Assembly (NCBI GenBank): GCA_021777535.1
Contig: JAJYDN010000023.1
Location: 1-34,107 of the forward strand
Direction: 5' to 3'
Source of the DNA: Pseudomonadota bacterium
GTDB lineage: Bacteria; Pseudomonadota; Gammaproteobacteria; Acidiferrobacterales; Acidiferrobacteraceae
DNA length: 34,107 nucleotides
The position numbers were made by a program, and so were the translations under genes. Shown piece by piece: positions 1-6,767 of the stretch (its first letter is position 1; every line of letters begins with the position of its first letter). A model generated the notes under the pieces. The model was not told the DNA's origin, made no database searches, and saw only the letters and a list, made by a program, of their open reading frames with translations.

Positions 1-332
1 ATCTCGACGAAGGGCGTACCGGCGCTCAGCCCGACGGCGCTCATGTCGTTGGCTTCGACACGGTACCGCCCGTTTCCGCAAAGACTGCGGGTGGCTTTGC
101 TTTCCGCCTCGCCATCGACGAGGACCAGGCTGGACAAAATGACTTCCTTGCCGTGCCCGGCCAGCATGTCCGCTATGTCGAGCCAGTCGGGCAGACGGAG
201 TCCGCGCCGTTTATAGCAGACGATTTCGCCGAGATAGACGATGTCGACCGGCGTGCGGGCGATATCATCGTAAAAGGCCCGGATGGTGTCCACGGACCAA
301 TAGAAAGGGATGGGTGCCAGGGAGAGTTTCAT
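1..332 (-). CDS. ubiV: UbiV, O2-independent ubiquinone hydroxylation protein (partial, runs off the left edge)
   Basis: The first 110 codons of a U32-peptidase-like protein are visible; the rest lies beyond base 1. The protein begins MKLSLAPIPFYWSVDTIRAF and contains LGEIVCYKRR, with Cys39 at the position of the first 4Fe-4S ligand of E. coli UbiV (Cys39 there too). In that family UbiU and UbiV form a complex that, with UbiT, hydroxylates the ubiquinone ring without oxygen, using prephenate as oxygen donor. The ATG lies 2 bases after the ubiU stop codon, so the two genes are almost certainly cotranscribed and translationally coupled. The remaining Cys ligands cannot be checked here. The end is a window cut, not a biological truncation. 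Confidence 0.93.
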   Translation of the reverse strand, partial: MKLSLAPIPFYWSVDTIRAFYDDIARTPVDIVYLGEIVCYKRRGLRLPDWLDIADMLAGHGKEVILSSLVLVDGEAESKATRSLCGNGRYRVEANDMSAVGLSAGTPFVE

Positions 333-334
333 GG

Positions 335-1339
335 TTATCGCCAAGGTCTGTGGAATGCGCCAAGTGTCTGCTGGTGGCCTTCGGCAAGCGCGCTCAGGCC
401 CTGCATCCATTCCGGCCGCAGTACGAAATGGAGGGGATCGCGTGCGCACTCGTCGATCGCGGCGCGCATGATGGCCGTGACCCGTGCCACATAGGTGGGT
501 GAGCGCTGGCGCCCCTCGATCTTGATGGCCGTCACGCCCGTGCGTACGAGATCGGCGAGGATCGGCAGCACATTGAGGCTCGTCGGTTCCTCGAGTGTGT
601 AGTTGATGGCGCCACGGGTCTTGAAGCGGCCTTTGCAGATCGTTGGATAGCCGGCCTTTTCCGTCTTCTGAAAGACATCGATCAGGACCCCGTCGAGCCG
701 TACGCGCCGTGTGCCCGCTTCTTCTTCCCAGCGTACCGAGGCGGCCGGCGAGCAGGCGCCACAGGTATTCGGCGATACGCCCGTGGCGTAGGACGACAGC
801 GCGCAACGGCCTTCCACCATCACGCACAGACCCCCGAAACCAAATACCTCGAGGGCAAGCGGCGCTTCCTGTGTAAGGCGTTCCACCTGGTTTAGCGGCA
901 GCACACGGGGGAGCACGGCACGGGTGACGCCGAAACGTTCCGCATAAAAACGCAGCGCCTCTGCGTTGGTGGCCGATCCCTGCACCGACAAATGCCGCGG
1001 GATGCGCGGATGGCGCTCCTGGCAATACCGCAAAAGCCCGAGGTCGGCGATGATGAAGGCATCGACGCCCGTTGCGGCGGCCTCGTCGACGGCACGCTCC
1101 CAGGTATCTACGCGGCCCGGTTGCGGGTAGGTGTTGATCGCGAGGTAGATCTTGCGGTTTTTGCGGTGCGCATAGCGCACGCTGTCGGCAAGCTCTGTCC
1201 GGCTCAGATTGAGGCCCGGGAAGTTGCGCGCATTGGTCTCGTTGCGCATGCCCACATAGACGGCATCCGCTCCGGCGTCGAGAGCCGCTTCGACTGCCGC
1301 GCTTGTGCCGCCAGGGCACACCAGTTCAGGTTTGTTCAT
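335..1339 (-). CDS. ubiU: UbiU, O2-independent ubiquinone hydroxylation protein (U32 peptidase family)
   Basis: This 334-residue protein matches the size of E. coli UbiU (331). It has the U32 start (ELVCPGGTSAAVEAALDAGA) and four cysteines, C172, C179, C196 and C235. Their spacing equals that of the E. coli 4Fe-4S ligands C169, C176, C193 and C232 with a constant offset of three; an extra Cys193 is also present. It is the partner of UbiV in anaerobic ubiquinone biosynthesis. I chose the ATG at 1339 because it precedes the conserved N-terminus and overlaps the yhcC stop as ATGA; the upstream in-frame extension is arginine-rich and unlike the family. It is the third gene of a leftward operon whose promoter carries an FNR-type box, which suits a pathway used without oxygen. 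Confidence 0.95.
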   Translation of the reverse strand: MNKPELVCPGGTSAAVEAALDAGADAVYVGMRNETNARNFPGLNLSRTELADSVRYAHRKNRKIYLAINTYPQPGRVDTWERAVDEAAATGVDAFIIADLGLLRYCQERHPRIPRHLSVQGSATNAEALRFYAERFGVTRAVLPRVLPLNQVERLTQEAPLALEVFGFGGLCVMVEGRCALSSYATGVSPNTCGACSPAASVRWEEEAGTRRVRLDGVLIDVFQKTEKAGYPTICKGRFKTRGAINYTLEEPTSLNVLPILADLVRTGVTAIKIEGRQRSPTYVARVTAIMRAAIDECARDPLHFVLRPEWMQGLSALAEGHQQTLGAFHRPWR

Positions 1340-2265
1340 CCGTGCGCCCCTTCGGCGAGTATGCCTTGATGAGTTCCCCGCCGGGCGAGTTCGGCGGTGA
1401 TAGCGTTCAGCACCTTCCACTTGCCAAGACACCAGTTCGGCGCCAACAGGATGGCGGCTTTGGCGGTGCCCGTGAGGCGATGGAAGACGATATGGCTCGG
1501 TGTGTGTTCGATCAGGTCCGCGACGATGCCGACGTAGGTCGACAAGGGGAGCGCCGACATATTTCCATTCCGCCAGTCACGCGCCATGCGGCTGCCGCGC
1601 ACAATGTGCAGTGGATGGATTTTCAGTCCCGCCACGCCCAGCGCGATTACGCGTGCGAGGCTCTCGAGCGCATGGTGGCGCTCTTCTCCGGGCAATCCCA
1701 CGATGAGGTGGGTGCAGATCGGCAGTTTATGGCGTTGAAGAAGGAGCACTGCGTCGCGGTATTCGCGAAAGCCGTGGCCGCGGTTCACGCGCGCAAGTGT
1801 GTCGTCGAAGCTCGACTGCAGGCCGAGCTCGACCCATATGGAAAACCCCCGGTCACGATAGGAGGCAAGCAGCGCCACGATTTCTTCGGAAAGACAGTCA
1901 GGCCGGGTGCCGACGCTCAAGCCGACCACGCCCGGAACGGCGAGCGCTTCTTCATAGCGGGCGGCAAGCTGCTCTACCGGCGCGTACGTGTTGGTGTACG
2001 TCTGGAAATAGGCGATGACCTTGCGTGCTCCGGTGCGGCGGCTCACGCACGCCATGCCGGCGCGGACCTGCTCGGCGATCGAGCCTGCGCGCACCTGGGG
2101 ATGAAAGGACTTGTTGTTGCAAAAGGTGCAACCGCCACGTCCGCGCGTTCCGTCGCGGTTGGGGCAGGTAAAGCCGGCGTCTATGGCAACCTTGTGGACG
2201 CGTTCACCAAACACACGCAGACACTGCTGTCCGAAGGTTTCAACGAGGTCGGAAAGAACTGCCAT
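1336..2265 (-). CDS. yhcC: YhcC family radical SAM protein
   Basis: This 309-residue protein has the same length as E. coli YhcC (radical SAM family TIGR01212). Its cluster motif is the family's expanded form, C34-x11-C46-x2-C49 within CPNRDGTRGRGGCTFCNN, rather than the canonical CxxxCxxC. Later landmarks are YFQTYTNTYAP near 115 and the VELGLQS and LIVGLPGE stretches of the radical SAM barrel. The substrate of YhcC is not established to my knowledge. I use the ATG at 2265; an in-frame extension upstream would run inside the preceding gene and looks unlike a protein start. It overlaps the upstream radical SAM gene by 26 bases and ubiU by 4, so the three are one translational unit. Its place beside ubiUV suggests a role in anaerobic growth; that is inference. 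Confidence 0.9.
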   Translation of the reverse strand: MAVLSDLVETFGQQCLRVFGERVHKVAIDAGFTCPNRDGTRGRGGCTFCNNKSFHPQVRAGSIAEQVRAGMACVSRRTGARKVIAYFQTYTNTYAPVEQLAARYEEALAVPGVVGLSVGTRPDCLSEEIVALLASYRDRGFSIWVELGLQSSFDDTLARVNRGHGFREYRDAVLLLQRHKLPICTHLIVGLPGEERHHALESLARVIALGVAGLKIHPLHIVRGSRMARDWRNGNMSALPLSTYVGIVADLIEHTPSHIVFHRLTGTAKAAILLAPNWCLGKWKVLNAITAELARRGTHQGILAEGAHG

Positions 2266-2902
2266 CGGTGGCTTCCATGGGGCGTACCCGGAACTCGACC
2301 CCGATGCGGTCAGCAGTCCGGGCGCAGGCGCCGATGTCGACCCCCTCGAGGCCATCGATTGCCGTGAGCGTCACGCGCGGTACATGGTCGCGCACGCGGG
2401 CGGCAAAATCCAGCACCGCATCATAGCTTCCGGCAAGGAGGGGGCGGCAGTGCCGTTCGTACAGGGCGGCATTGTGTGCGTTCAGGGAGATCGAGACGTG
2501 GTCGATGCAGCCGGCGAGCGCAGGCGTGATGTCCCGTCCATGAACCAAATTGGCGAGCCCATTCGTGTTGAGGCGCAGCGGAATGCGATCCTGGCGCAAA
2601 CTGCGGGCCACGCTGAGGAGCGTGTCGAGGCGCATCGTGGGCTCTCCGAGGCCGCAGAATATGCGTTCGTCGCAGGCACCGGCGACGCGCGCAGCGTGCA
2701 CGAGCGTCTGCACGTCCGGTTCTTCGGAGCGGACCAGCCGGAGATAGGATTGACCTACGGTCCACAGATGATGGAATTTCGGGCAAAATTGACACCGCAG
2801 GGAGCAGCGGTTGGTCAGGTTGAGGTAGACAGCCCGCTCGAGCCGGTAACAAACGGCGCCTTCGGAGGATTCGAAGGAAATGGTCGGGCTCGTATTTCTC
2901 AT
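2240..2902 (-). CDS. TatD-linked radical SAM protein (TIGR04038-like)
   Basis: The 220-residue protein carries the radical SAM motif C33-x3-C37-x2-C40 in YLNLTNRCSLRCQFC, a GLGEPTMR glycine-rich SAM-binding stretch near 87, and RLNTNGLANL near 115. The short length and the xLNLTNRC opening resemble the 'TatD family-associated radical SAM' group, whose reaction is unknown; no tatD gene is in this window. The ATG at 2902 is preferred over the in-frame GTG at 2908, because the predicted transcription start falls on the A of this ATG. No Shine-Dalgarno sequence precedes it. It is first in the leftward operon with yhcC, ubiU and ubiV. The family name is recalled, so a TIGRFAM search would settle it. 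Confidence 0.82.
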   Translation of the reverse strand: MRNTSPTISFESSEGAVCYRLERAVYLNLTNRCSLRCQFCPKFHHLWTVGQSYLRLVRSEEPDVQTLVHAARVAGACDERIFCGLGEPTMRLDTLLSVARSLRQDRIPLRLNTNGLANLVHGRDITPALAGCIDHVSISLNAHNAALYERHCRPLLAGSYDAVLDFAARVRDHVPRVTLTAIDGLEGVDIGACARTADRIGVEFRVRPMEATDGSSFRPR

Positions 2903-3002: not shown

Positions 3003-3770
3003 GTGCTCGGCAATGGCGATTCAGAGGGAGTGCAGGCGGGCTTGCAGGCGCGCGCCGACGTTTTGGCCGCCATCCGCCTCGGGGGCCTGGTGCCATGGAG
3101 CACTGTCGATTATCCCGGTCATCAGTCCGCCGTACTTTTTTGCGCAGGCTGTCCCTGGCGCTGCGCTTATTGCCACAACAGCCATCTCTGGTTGCCGCGG
3201 GCGGACGTAAGCTGGGCGAGCGTCCAGGCCTTTCTCGCACGGCGCCGCGGCCTGCTCGACGCGGTCGTCATCAGCGGGGGCGAACCCCTTGCGCAAGCCG
3301 GCCCGGTCGCGTCGGCGCTCGCCGCTATCCGCGAAGCCGGTTTCAAGACGGCCCTGCATACCGCCGGCGTCGCGCCCCATCGGTTGGCAAAGCTGCTGCC
3401 GCTTCTCGATTGGGTCGGCCTCGACATCAAGGCGCCTTTCGACCGCTATGCGGCCGTCACGGGCAGCCGGCGCAGCGGTGCGGCGGCTCGCGCGGCACTC
3501 GACGAAGTGCTGACGAGCGGGATTGCCTGCGAACTGCGCACGACTGTTCACCCAGACCTCCTGTCGGAGGCGGATCTCGTGGCCATGGTTACCGAGTTGC
3601 GCGGGCTCGGCGTAGAGCGCCTGATTCTGAAGGATTTCCGGGCGCAAGGCTGCGCGGATGCCGTTCTCGCGGCAAGTTACCGGCCATGGCTTAGTGCGGC
3701 GCTCGCCGGCAGGCTGCGCGCCGTCATGCCCGCCATCGTGCTGCCGGACCAGGTCGGCGCGGCCGCCTGA
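3003..3770 (+). CDS. nrdG: Anaerobic ribonucleotide reductase activating protein (radical SAM glycyl-radical activase)
   Basis: The 255-residue protein has VPWSTVDYPG, then C47-x2-C50 and the radical SAM motif C50-x3-C54-x2-C57 in CAGCPWRCAYCHNS, followed by VISGGEPL and LDIKAPFDRY. This layout fits the NrdG2-like activases that install the glycyl radical on class III ribonucleotide reductase. I keep the GTG at 3003 because GAGGAGGA sits 6 bases upstream. The reductase gene nrdD is not in this window, so the partner is inferred. The gene is divergent from the radical SAM/ubiUV operon and shares its FNR-type box, consistent with anaerobic DNA precursor synthesis. Another glycyl-radical activase role cannot be excluded. 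Confidence 0.85.
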   Translation: MLGNGDSEGVQAGLQARADVLAAIRLGGLVPWSTVDYPGHQSAVLFCAGCPWRCAYCHNSHLWLPRADVSWASVQAFLARRRGLLDAVVISGGEPLAQAGPVASALAAIREAGFKTALHTAGVAPHRLAKLLPLLDWVGLDIKAPFDRYAAVTGSRRSGAAARAALDEVLTSGIACELRTTVHPDLLSEADLVAMVTELRGLGVERLILKDFRAQGCADAVLAASYRPWLSAALAGRLRAVMPAIVLPDQVGAAA

Positions 3771-3849: not shown

Positions 3850-5049
3850 TCAGGAATCGCGCTGCAGGAACAGAATGGCACTATAGCGCACCACCCAGGG
3901 CAGCAGCGTGATGACGGCCAGAGGGGCCGCGACGACGCTCAGATTGAGTGCGGCCCAACGATCGAATGGCGGGAAAGCCGCCGCGATGCGGAGCAGTGTC
4001 GCGGCCTGCACGCCGCCCAGGGCCAACCAGCTTGCCGCATCGCTGTGCAGGGGCTGGCCGGAGTGGCCACGGGTGACGCGCGTCACCATCGCGACGACGA
4101 GGCTCAAGGCGGCGCCGAGGCCGAGCGCGTGGAGAGGGGCGCGTCCGCCAACCCAGACGCCAAAGAGCCGCGCGCCGTCCTGGACGGTATACAGGCCAAA
4201 GCCGATGGCAATCCAGGCAATCCCTGTGTAAAGGAGCGCAAGCAGGCCGTAGTGCAGGCCGTCGCGCCGCACCCAGACTGCCGCGTGGAAGGCTGCAAGG
4301 CCTGTGAGTGCGGCGTCAAGCGGGACCCGGCCGGCAAAATGCCCGCCGGTTGCCAGCGCGGTGCGGGCAATGCCCAGGGCGAGAAACGCCGCGGGCGCCC
4401 CGCGCAGCGCGCGATTGCGGAAGCGAGGCAGTACCCCGACGCTGAAAAAGGGCAGCATGCGGTAGGCGACGGCAAAGAGTGTGGGCAGAAGAAAGGAAAA
4501 GAGGCCGATACGGATGGCGATCGTCGCAAGGGCCCCGTCATCGCGGCCGAGCGCAAACGCGTACAGAACGAGACCGATCACCTCGGCAGACAGGCTTATA
4601 CAGAAGGGGCCCGCTCCGGTGCGCGCCGGGGCCGGTGTCCGCCGGTAGAGATCGATGAGGCGCGCGACGAGCAGGCCATCGGCCAGTGCCATGGCGAGCG
4701 CGCCGATGGCGGCGACGGCGGCTCCCGCCGCGAGACCGCCATAAACGGCGAGGAGACCTGCGATCCGCAGCAGCGCGGGCGGGGCGTAATGGGTGCGGGG
4801 CAGGGCCGGCTGCCTAAGCCAGCGCGGAAAGGTAGTGGTCAGGAATCCGAACACAAAGAACGGAAAAAGCCCATAGAGCATCAGGAAGCCATGCGTCGCA
4901 GGCGCCGCGATGCCAAGCGGCGGCACCGGATACCAGCCGGCAAGCGCGCCCCCGAGCCACACTGACCACACGACGAGGCTTGCGATGATCTGGAAGAGTC
5001 CGGCCGCGAAATAGATGCGGTGTGGCGCATCGAGAATGCGTGGGCTCAC
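3850..5049 (-). CDS. nnrS: NnrS family membrane protein
   Basis: The protein has 399 residues with about twelve hydrophobic segments throughout. It includes the NnrS hallmark near 53-75 (HGFLMLYGLFPFFVFGFLTT) and a second His region, RAPLHALGLGAA. NnrS proteins are haem- and copper-containing inner-membrane proteins linked to nitric oxide metabolism and protection from nitrosative stress; their exact chemistry is unsettled. The start is GTG, supported by GGAGG seven bases upstream. The gene lies 36 bases downstream of a hemerythrin gene on the same strand, so the two are probably one operon under the FNR/DNR-like site at 5593-5606. Downstream it converges on the nrdG-like gene across a 79-base gap with no clear intrinsic terminator. 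Confidence 0.92.
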   Translation of the reverse strand: MSPRILDAPHRIYFAAGLFQIIASLVVWSVWLGGALAGWYPVPPLGIAAPATHGFLMLYGLFPFFVFGFLTTTFPRWLRQPALPRTHYAPPALLRIAGLLAVYGGLAAGAAVAAIGALAMALADGLLVARLIDLYRRTPAPARTGAGPFCISLSAEVIGLVLYAFALGRDDGALATIAIRIGLFSFLLPTLFAVAYRMLPFFSVGVLPRFRNRALRGAPAAFLALGIARTALATGGHFAGRVPLDAALTGLAAFHAAVWVRRDGLHYGLLALLYTGIAWIAIGFGLYTVQDGARLFGVWVGGRAPLHALGLGAALSLVVAMVTRVTRGHSGQPLHSDAASWLALGGVQAATLLRIAAAFPPFDRWAALNLSVVAAPLAVITLLPWVVRYSAILFLQRDS

Positions 5050-5085: not shown

Positions 5086-5526
5086 TCAGTACTGGACTCC
5101 GGCCATGGCTTCCATCGCTTCGAGGAGGTCGTCGCGTTCGGTGGCGAACAGGGTATCGAGTGTCGGGCAGAGGACGTTCTCCTCACGGGCATGATGGTCG
5201 CGGATCGTGGCGGCGAGCGTGTTCAGGGCTGTCCGGAACGCCGCCGATGACCGGCAGGCCCGCTCTTCGGCCGCGCGCGCAAGCAGTATGCGAATACGAT
5301 CGTGCTCTGCGCGCATGACGGCAATCGGACCGTCTTCGCCCATGCGCTCCTCGAATGGTTCGAAGAGAACCTGTTCCTCGATGCCGAGGTTGCGTGTAAC
5401 GGCGGTATGGAGGGCCATGAAAGCCCGTCCGTCATCGTCGCACCCCGCGTTGCCGGCCTGCTCGAACAATGTATGAATGTTGCGGTGTTCATCCGTCAAA
5501 AATGCCGATATTGTCGGGTTTTCCAT
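5086..5526 (-). CDS. Hemerythrin HHE domain protein
   Basis: A 146-residue, mostly helical protein with the spaced His/Glu ligands of a di-iron hemerythrin: DEHRNIH near the N-terminus, LHTAVTRNLGIEEQVLF, MRAEHDRIRILL, and IRDHHAREENVLCP near the C-terminus. Such domains bind oxygen, nitric oxide or iron; RIC/YtfE-type relatives act in repair after nitrosative stress, but this protein lacks a visible N-terminal ScdA domain. The ATG at 5526 is preceded by AGAGGA eight bases upstream; a longer in-frame reading is low-complexity and rejected. It is cotranscribed with nnrS, which makes nitric oxide sensing or detoxification the most likely role. I would not assign a gene name. Confidence 0.88.
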   Translation of the reverse strand: MENPTISAFLTDEHRNIHTLFEQAGNAGCDDDGRAFMALHTAVTRNLGIEEQVLFEPFEERMGEDGPIAVMRAEHDRIRILLARAAEERACRSSAAFRTALNTLAATIRDHHAREENVLCPTLDTLFATERDDLLEAMEAMAGVQY

Positions 5527-5691: not shown

Positions 5692-5705
5692 TTGATATTA
5701 GTCAA
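5692..5705. promoter_or_regulatory. Second FNR box, upstream of fnr
   Basis: TTGATATTAGTCAA matches TTGAT-N4-ATCAA at nine of ten specified bases. No -10 element lies at the class II distance on either strand. TTGATA (5692-5697) could instead act as the -35 of a rightward promoter with TATTCT (5714-5719), spacer 16. In that arrangement bound FNR would block transcription toward fnr. Negative autoregulation is known for E. coli fnr; here it is inference. Confidence 0.6.
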
Positions 5706-6032: not shown

Positions 6033-6767
6033 ATGCTCGCGACGAATTTTGAAACAACCCTGAAGCAACGCTGTTCGGCCTGTAGCCTGCGGGAGATCTG
6101 TTTGCCCCTCGGGCTCGATCAGCGGGAACTGTCCCGGCTCGACGATCTCATCAAGAAGCGGCGCACGATCCCGGCCGGCCAGCACCTCTTCCGGGCGGGA
6201 GACCCGTTCCAGGGGCTCGCTGCCGTACGGTCCGGATTCTTCAAGATCTACGAGATCAGCGAGAGCGGTTACGAACAGATAACAGGCTTTCCGATGGGGG
6301 GCGAACTGATCGGCCTGGATGCCATCAGCACGGGCGCCCACCTCGGCAATGCGCTCGCCCTGGAAGACAGCGAGGTATGTGAAATCCCGTTCGCGCGTCT
6401 GGAGGTCCTGCTGTCGGAGCTCCCGCGCCTGCAGCATCAGTTCCACAAACTGCTAAGCGGCGCCATCGTGCTCGATCACAGTCTGCTGATGGTACTGGGC
6501 ACGATGACGGCCGAGCACAAGCTCGCGGCCTTTCTGCTGAATCTCGCCGACCGGCTGGAGATGCGGGGCTACTCGCCACTTGTGATTCATCTGCCCATGT
6601 CGCGCGAGGAAATCGGCAATTATCTCGGACTGAAACTCGAGACGGTAAGCCGTATGTTTTCGAAGCTCAGGCAGGAAGGCCTGATCGAGGCGGAAGGCCG
6701 CAAGGTTCTCATTCGCAAACGGGATGCCCTGAAGGTACTGGCGGCGGGCGCACGCCGTGACCGCTGA
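6033..6767 (+). CDS. fnr: FNR, oxygen-sensing CRP-family transcriptional regulator
   Basis: The 244-residue protein aligns along its length with E. coli FNR from memory. The oxygen-labile 4Fe-4S ligands are present as C14, C17 and C23 (RCSACSLREIC) and C116 (EDSEVCEIPF), equivalent to C20, C23, C29 and C122. The cyclic-nucleotide-like beta barrel includes ESGYEQITGFPMGGELIGLDAI. The C-terminal helix-turn-helix has MSREEIGNYLGLKLETVSRMF, keeping the Glu/Ser/Arg residues that read TTGAT half-sites. It is expected to dimerise without oxygen and activate the boxes found at 2937 and perhaps 5593, and to act on 5692. The absence of a strong Shine-Dalgarno leaves the start slightly open, but the cysteine cluster position supports 6033. 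Confidence 0.95.
   Translation: MLATNFETTLKQRCSACSLREICLPLGLDQRELSRLDDLIKKRRTIPAGQHLFRAGDPFQGLAAVRSGFFKIYEISESGYEQITGFPMGGELIGLDAISTGAHLGNALALEDSEVCEIPFARLEVLLSELPRLQHQFHKLLSGAIVLDHSLLMVLGTMTAEHKLAAFLLNLADRLEMRGYSPLVIHLPMSREEIGNYLGLKLETVSRMFSKLRQEGLIEAEGRKVLIRKRDALKVLAAGARRDR

Follow-up and report, generated by a model that had tools for sequence, protein, structure and literature searches.

Organization of the yhcC–ubiUV operon

We analyzed a DNA stretch of 34,107 nucleotides (the window), the first 34 kb of contig C12 (JAJYDN010000023.1) of an Acidiferrobacteraceae genome of 2.3 Mb in 76 contigs. At its left end, two genes encoding radical S-adenosylmethionine (SAM) proteins, a TatD-linked gene and yhcC, directly precede ubiU and ubiV of the oxygen-independent ubiquinone pathway, and an FNR-type box lies ahead of the set. 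From the comparisons below, we infer that YhcC most likely modifies tRNA, not quinone, within an FNR-controlled set of oxygen-independent enzymes. The features are as follows.

2937–2950, no strand: perfect FNR-type box TTGACGCATGTCAA, between the radical SAM operon and the divergent nrdG2 gene (box scan)
2240–2902, minus strand: TatD-linked radical SAM gene (TIGR04038), first gene of the operon; 220 amino acids, CxxxCxxC and GLGEP motifs (profile, motifs, and an AlphaFold2 model with a predicted local distance difference test score, pLDDT, of 91)
1336–2265, minus strand: yhcC (TIGR01212, MnmL/YtqA family); 309 amino acids, C-x11-C-x2-C motif (profile and motif)
335–1339, minus strand: ubiU, oxygen-independent ubiquinone hydroxylase subunit, with a CX6CX16CX38C motif (profile and motif)
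5–332, minus strand: N-terminal part of ubiV, cut at the contig end, with the rest on contig C58 (L002/L040; profile and contig match)

Three of the proteins scored above the cut-offs of their families: the TatD-linked protein with 206.9 bits against TIGR04038 (curated cut-off 129.7), YhcC with 351.4 bits against TIGR01212 (curated cut-off 180), and UbiU, which carries the motif listed above, with 512.8 bits against NF047963 (cut-off 440). UbiV was represented by two unjoined pieces, scoring 131.6 (N-terminal) and 237.6 bits against NF047965, whose cut-off of 275 refers to the whole protein; C39 and the CX12CX3C part of its motif CXnCX12CX3C were found across the two pieces. These UbiU and UbiV cysteine cluster motifs are as given in passages of PMC6747719. 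Both radical SAM proteins likewise have a three-cysteine cluster motif. Contig C58 shares 126 identical bases with window positions 5–130 and carries the remainder of ubiV, and the first four window bases, at the assembly edge, differ from it, indicating that ubiV was split by the assembly. On C58, ubiV is followed by a lipoate-ligase-like gene with a DUF116 domain (lplA/DUF116; L040:850-2256). Within this family such a gene comes after ubiV, as it does in Ectothiorhodospira lacustris and in two genomes from family f28.

The four genes are tightly packed. An earlier note made from this sequence had given a 26-base overlap, a 4-base overlap, and a 2-base gap, and all three proved correct to the base: the TatD-linked gene and yhcC overlap at 2240–2265, yhcC and ubiU overlap at 1336–1339, and ubiU is separated by positions 333–334 from ubiV, which begins at 332. 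There are 17 family relatives, of which 16 were examined, with G010 left out because its ubiU is split between contigs. The TatD-linked gene, yhcC, ubiU, ubiV, and lplA were kept in this order in 15 of the 16; the remaining genome, G017, has no TatD-linked gene beside yhcC. All 15 relatives that keep both radical SAM genes have the 26-base overlap. The yhcC–ubiU junction ranged from a 7-base overlap to an 8-base gap (13 of the 15, those in which the script found the ubiU start). With this order in the relatives and linkage across the class, the grouping extends beyond this genome; confinement to it was the first of the findings that, according to the earlier note, would refute its proposal.

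Occurrence and probable co-regulation of yhcC with ubiU

The occurrence of yhcC was examined in a class sample of 229 genomes and a phylum sample of 188 genomes, plus control genomes; each family was searched by profile, and presence means a score above the curated cut-off. In the class sample, yhcC was present in 42 genomes, ubiU in 62, TIGR04038 in 41, the MnmC oxidase in 48, and NrdD in 19. All 42 yhcC genomes had ubiU, and yhcC was present in none of the 167 genomes without ubiU (p 5e-31 with genomes treated as independent, which they are not). The two genes lay within 1 kb on the same strand in 33 of the 42. NrdD, an unrelated anaerobic marker, accompanied ubiU less strictly (15/19 vs 42/42; p 0.007 on small numbers). 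In the phylum sample, yhcC was present in 7 genomes and ubiU in 68, and all seven yhcC genomes, two of which are also in the class sample, had ubiU. The association is one-sided: 20 of the 62 ubiU genomes in the class sample and 61 of the 68 in the phylum sample had no yhcC above cut-off. The association does not extend outside the phylum: six control genomes had the yhcC family above cut-off, and UbiU was above cut-off in E. coli alone, not in the other five. Three yhcC pieces were excluded from these counts: the smaller piece of G203 and two sub-cut-off fragments, one in G050 (120.6 bits) that adjoins a broken ubiU and one in G084 (163 bits), whose genome has no ubiU above cut-off and which may be an exception to the yhcC–ubiU rule.

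Within four genes of ubiU (63 loci, 50 families), the neighbors found included ubiV (47 families), ubiT (35), yhcC (at least 26, a lower bound as one was missed), the TatD-linked gene (10), and ubiD (6). Several families also have a gene resembling TauD/TfdA-type dioxygenases in the vicinity of ubiUV, yhcC, or the TatD-linked gene (for example, L100:5875-6783 and L270:2797-3702), an odd companion for oxygen-independent enzymes. E. coli yhcC had no match by blastn and was found by a protein search of the plasmid collection. Several of the plasmid-collection records with yhcC run to millions of bases or include core chromosomal genes, and resemble mislabeled chromosomes or pieces of them.

We then scanned for FNR-type boxes (TTGAY-N4-RTCAA with at most one mismatch) from 300 bases before to 110 bases after the longest-frame start; locus G203 and the G164 junction were too short to score. 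Expected counts came from shuffles that keep base composition only, and the loci are not independent. Of 30 linked loci, 24 had a box upstream of the first gene (the TatD-linked gene or yhcC), 22 of them perfect, against 1.0 expected, whereas only 1 of 29 scorable yhcC–ubiU junctions had one. Boxes thus precede the first gene and are nearly absent from the junction, suggesting that the radical SAM genes and ubiUV most likely share a single promoter. In the window, the FNR promoter site predicted for the operon is represented by the perfect box at 2937–2950, which may act on the divergent nrdG2 as well. In E. coli, yhcC is not linked to ubiUV; it lies beside arcB with a one-mismatch box, and passages of PMC3688515 place both yhbUV (ubiUV) and yhcC among the operons directly activated by FNR. 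The earlier note had suggested a common task for the four genes; given the recurring linkage and the FNR-type box ahead of the set, they do appear to form a single anaerobic unit.

The locus resembles the described ubiTUV locus (PMC6747719, PMC10470549, PMC11707229) in having ubiU followed by ubiV, ubiT nearby, an FNR-type box, and the cysteine motif of UbiU along with the parts of the UbiV motif found in its two pieces, but differs in that two radical SAM genes come first and the FNR-type box is ahead of them, far from ubiU. According to passages of PMC11707229, regulatory sites were searched for within 450 bp upstream of ubi genes; yhcC-first operons place the FNR-type site farther upstream than this reach, and the literature search showed no occurrence of yhcC in that paper. 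In the openly licensed literature searched, neither linkage of yhcC to ubiU or ubiV (supplements lie outside it, so the linkage may be reported elsewhere) nor any co-occurrence of YhcC with "radical SAM" was found, and the passages found on yhcC state no function for E. coli YhcC.

YhcC as a candidate tRNA-modifying enzyme

NCBIfam names TIGR01212 "tRNA modification radical SAM protein MnmL/YtqA". MnmL converts 5-carboxymethylaminomethyluridine to 5-aminomethyluridine (nm5U). Passages of PMC12548931 list MnmL with MnmC for nm5s2U34. Among sequence relatives with solved structures, Elp3 leads. The 11 best solved structures for an AlphaFold2 model of YhcC (8 sequences, pLDDT 80.9) were all Elp3/Elongator, with the tRNA enzymes MtaB at rank 13 and MiaB at ranks 15 and 16. 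Elp3/Elongator is thus closest to YhcC in both solved fold and sequence, but the 309-residue YhcC has only the Radical_SAM and Radical_SAM_C domains of Pfam and no acetyltransferase domain. The earlier note held that the two radical SAM proteins lack established substrates; given the family name and these structural matches, this is not supported for YhcC, and no established substrate was found for the TatD-linked protein.

In three Firmicutes, yhcC and a gene for a class I methyltransferase, which we take to be mnmM, overlap (by 4 bases in Listeria, 4 in Anoxybacillus, and 1 in Enterococcus). The Firmicute MnmL–MnmM operon contains the same radical SAM family, with 37% mean identity to ubiU-linked YhcC, but the partner here is ubiUV instead of mnmM. 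The window YhcC shares 42% identity with the Listeria protein and 44% with that of E. coli. Of 96 columns conserved in ubiU-linked YhcC, 56 are identical in Listeria, Enterococcus, and Anoxybacillus, including the three motif cysteines. The alignment held 42 of 43 matches (G173 was missed by open reading frame picking), and 41 entered the tree, with the short G203 left out. Gammaproteobacterial YhcC, except for a second G234 copy, formed one group (support 95/96), and that copy and Parabacteroides fell outside on long branches. A separate clade of ubiU-linked YhcC was considered and rejected, since ubiU-linked and unlinked rows intermingle in the tree, with E. coli, Aeromonas, and Thiothrix among them (48 rows, bootstrap not settled). 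The second TIGR01212 protein of G234 (L163:7950-8915; 270 bits) is divergent, lies away from ubiU, and is altered in the first motif region.

In the model that we favor, FNR most likely switches on the operon of the TatD-linked gene, yhcC, ubiU, ubiV, and lplA/DUF116 when oxygen is absent. UbiU and UbiV would then carry out the oxygen-free hydroxylation of ubiquinone precursors, as shown in E. coli, and YhcC would act on the tRNA wobble uridine in place of the flavin oxidase MnmC. The MnmC oxidase hands its electrons to O2. Passages of PMC9976899 describe the MnmC oxidase domain as dependent on flavin adenine dinucleotide. YhcC would stand to the MnmC oxidase as UbiUV stands to the oxygen-dependent ubiquinone hydroxylases, and yhcC would accompany ubiUV since each substitutes for an oxygen-dependent step, rather than through a part in making quinone. 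For this reading, in which YhcC is an Elp3-like radical SAM enzyme of the MnmL type on the wobble uridine and an oxygen-independent counterpart of MnmC, we consider the chances about even.

This proposal was examined through MnmC (at most 7 candidates scored per genome) and the methyltransferases of PF05430 (MnmC-type) and PF06962 (MnmM) at E 1e-10. The MnmC oxidase and yhcC were together above cut-off in only 1 of the 229 class genomes. We rejected this exclusion as proof of an MnmL activity: the difference between genomes with and without yhcC (1/42 vs 47/187, p 5e-4) vanishes within ubiU genomes (1/42 vs 1/20), and the MnmC oxidase is scarce in ubiU genomes generally (2/62 vs 46/167). A methyltransferase without the MnmC oxidase was found in 8 of 42 yhcC genomes against 17 of 187 others, which is not significant (p 0.10), and PF06962 was detected in 3 of the 42. 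In the window genome, neither PF05430 nor PF06962 was detected at this threshold; we therefore place YhcC in the MnmL family on sequence grounds, without calling it a proven MnmL.

Several points weigh against a tRNA role. If YhcC acted on tRNA only, its restriction to ubiU genomes in the class (42/42) would be unexplained beyond shared regulation, and among yhcC genes of the class sample that are not linked to ubiU, only 1 of 8 had a box (0.6 expected). The structural model, built on 8 sequences only, is poor at residues 39–59 around the cluster motif, and a long branch (2.35) parts gammaproteobacterial YhcC from the Firmicute proteins, in a tree whose bootstrap is not settled. In 33 of the 42 yhcC genomes, the window's included, neither an MnmC oxidase above cut-off nor PF05430 or PF06962 was detected, which would leave the known pathway ending at nm5U. 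The exclusion of MnmC is confounded, as ubiU genomes lack MnmC whether or not they have yhcC; moreover, the yhcC genomes G024 and G189 have sub-cut-off MnmC matches, and E. coli has both genes. An MnmC-like activity of Bacillus subtilis is reported, in passages of PMC7408541, not to need SAM.

These points bear on the alternatives. The missing nm5U methyltransferases in the 33 genomes, and the 40 of 96 conserved columns without identity across the three Firmicute proteins, would suit a different anaerobic job for YhcC, at another RNA position or on another substrate, sharing only the FNR promoter with ubiUV; the 56 shared columns with the three motif cysteines and the Elp3-like fold speak against this, and we consider it somewhat unlikely. 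A role of YhcC, and perhaps of the TatD-linked protein, in oxygen-independent ubiquinone synthesis, either in maturing UbiU/UbiV or in handling a prephenate-derived hydroxyl donor, would account for the presence of yhcC above cut-off only with ubiU (42/42 vs 0/167 in the class, 7/7 in the phylum), a stricter association than that of NrdD (15/19), and for the rank of yhcC, in at least 26 of 50 families, directly after ubiV (47) and ubiT (35). Prephenate as hydroxyl donor is described in passages of PMC11574389. This role is nevertheless unlikely, given the ubiU genomes without yhcC (20/62 and 61/68), the nearest fold being Elp3, the sub-cut-off G084 fragment (163 bits) in a genome without ubiU above cut-off, and the occurrence of the YhcC family in Firmicutes and in five controls without UbiU above cut-off. 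Listeria and Enterococcus are not known to make ubiquinone. Less probable still is the narrower version, in which YhcC is a working part of the UbiU/UbiV system in Pseudomonadota, a radical SAM helper in about two thirds of ubiU genomes (42/62 in the class sample) that handles, for example, the prephenate-derived donor. The earlier note had suggested that the radical SAM proteins could take part in an anaerobic step of quinone or cofactor synthesis; the anaerobic setting is supported, whereas a quinone role, though possible, seems unlikely for YhcC. That the neighborhood is a lineage accident without common function or regulation is hardly credible: the yhcC–ubiU junction does vary in length among relatives, but this reading is already contradicted by the adjacency of the two genes in 33 of 42 genomes over many families, the 26-base overlap in 15 of 15 relatives, and the FNR boxes at 24 of 30 loci.

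The TatD-linked protein, the surrounding genes, and implications

The TatD-linked protein is a single radical SAM domain with one three-cysteine motif. It shares CxxxCxxC and GLGEP with the TIGR04038 TatD-associated proteins, but here its gene is located beside yhcC and nrdG2, and no TatD match was found among the neighbors scanned. A fold search with its good model (pLDDT 91) returned general radical SAM enzymes (BlsE, PflA, NifB, TYW1, MoaA, and viperin) and gave no decision. Of the 41 TIGR04038 genomes in the class sample, 28 had ubiU, with the two genes adjacent on the same strand in 10 and near each other (within 5.3 kb on either strand) in a further 5. Since 5 of the 10 adjacent cases lack yhcC, the TatD-linked gene is linked to ubiU in its own right. 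It is present in 31 families of the neighborhood set and ubiU-linked in 10 of them.

Among 80 named TIGR04038 loci, of at least 591, the run of TatD-linked gene, yhcC, ubiU, and ubiV was found in six (two Ctena orbiculata symbionts, a gammaproteobacterial bin, Ectothiorhodospira lacustris, a proteobacterial bin, and a Chromatiales bin). Most of the 80, Nitrospirae and Geobacter among them, had no ubi gene in the stretch covered, and non-ubi neighbors recurred within lineages only, as far as seen in these loci. No constant partner was found in 26 loci away from ubiU. TIGR04038 proteins also occur in lineages that are not known to have ubiquinone. In four Desulfuromonadales-type loci (L248, L252, L260, and L262), the TIGR04038 gene follows an apparent methionyl-tRNA synthetase gene, named by eye, a place where tatD often lies. 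TIGR04038 genes not linked to ubiU had a box in 10 of 25 cases (1.0 expected), and the TatD-linked protein, often preceded by an FNR-type box, probably also performs an anaerobic step.

Beyond the operon, the window contains the following features.

3003–3770, plus strand: nrdG2-type activating enzyme (TIGR02495, 177.2 bits, cut-off 131.15), divergent from the operon (profile)
3850–5049, minus strand: NnrS protein (PF05940; Pfam)
5086–5508, minus strand: hemerythrin-domain protein (PF01814; Pfam)
5692–5705, no strand: second FNR-type box TTGATATTAGTCAA, between the hemerythrin gene and fnr (box scan)
6033–6767, plus strand: Fnr-family regulator (NF008365, 238 bits, cut-off 228; profile)

Contig C58 further carries ubiT (on the opposite strand), ubiD, hemN, and nrdD, with FNR-type boxes at 2781 (the ubiT/ubiD divergence), 4314 (ahead of hemN), 5768, 10702 (about 420 bases ahead of the nrdD match), and 11170. 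We read the C58 genes, together with nrdG2 and the NnrS, hemerythrin, and Fnr genes of the window, as an island of oxygen-independent enzymes.

Together, these observations suggest that these bacteria replace several oxygen-dependent steps together once air runs out. The co-occurrence of yhcC and ubiU, and the position of yhcC as the first or an early gene of an FNR-type ubiUV operon, reduce the possible roles of YhcC to a short, testable list. If YhcC serves UbiUV, a component of the oxygen-independent ubiquinone pathway has gone unnoticed. If YhcC is instead an anaerobic MnmL, wobble-uridine and quinone chemistry would change together when oxygen disappears, linking decoding to respiration.

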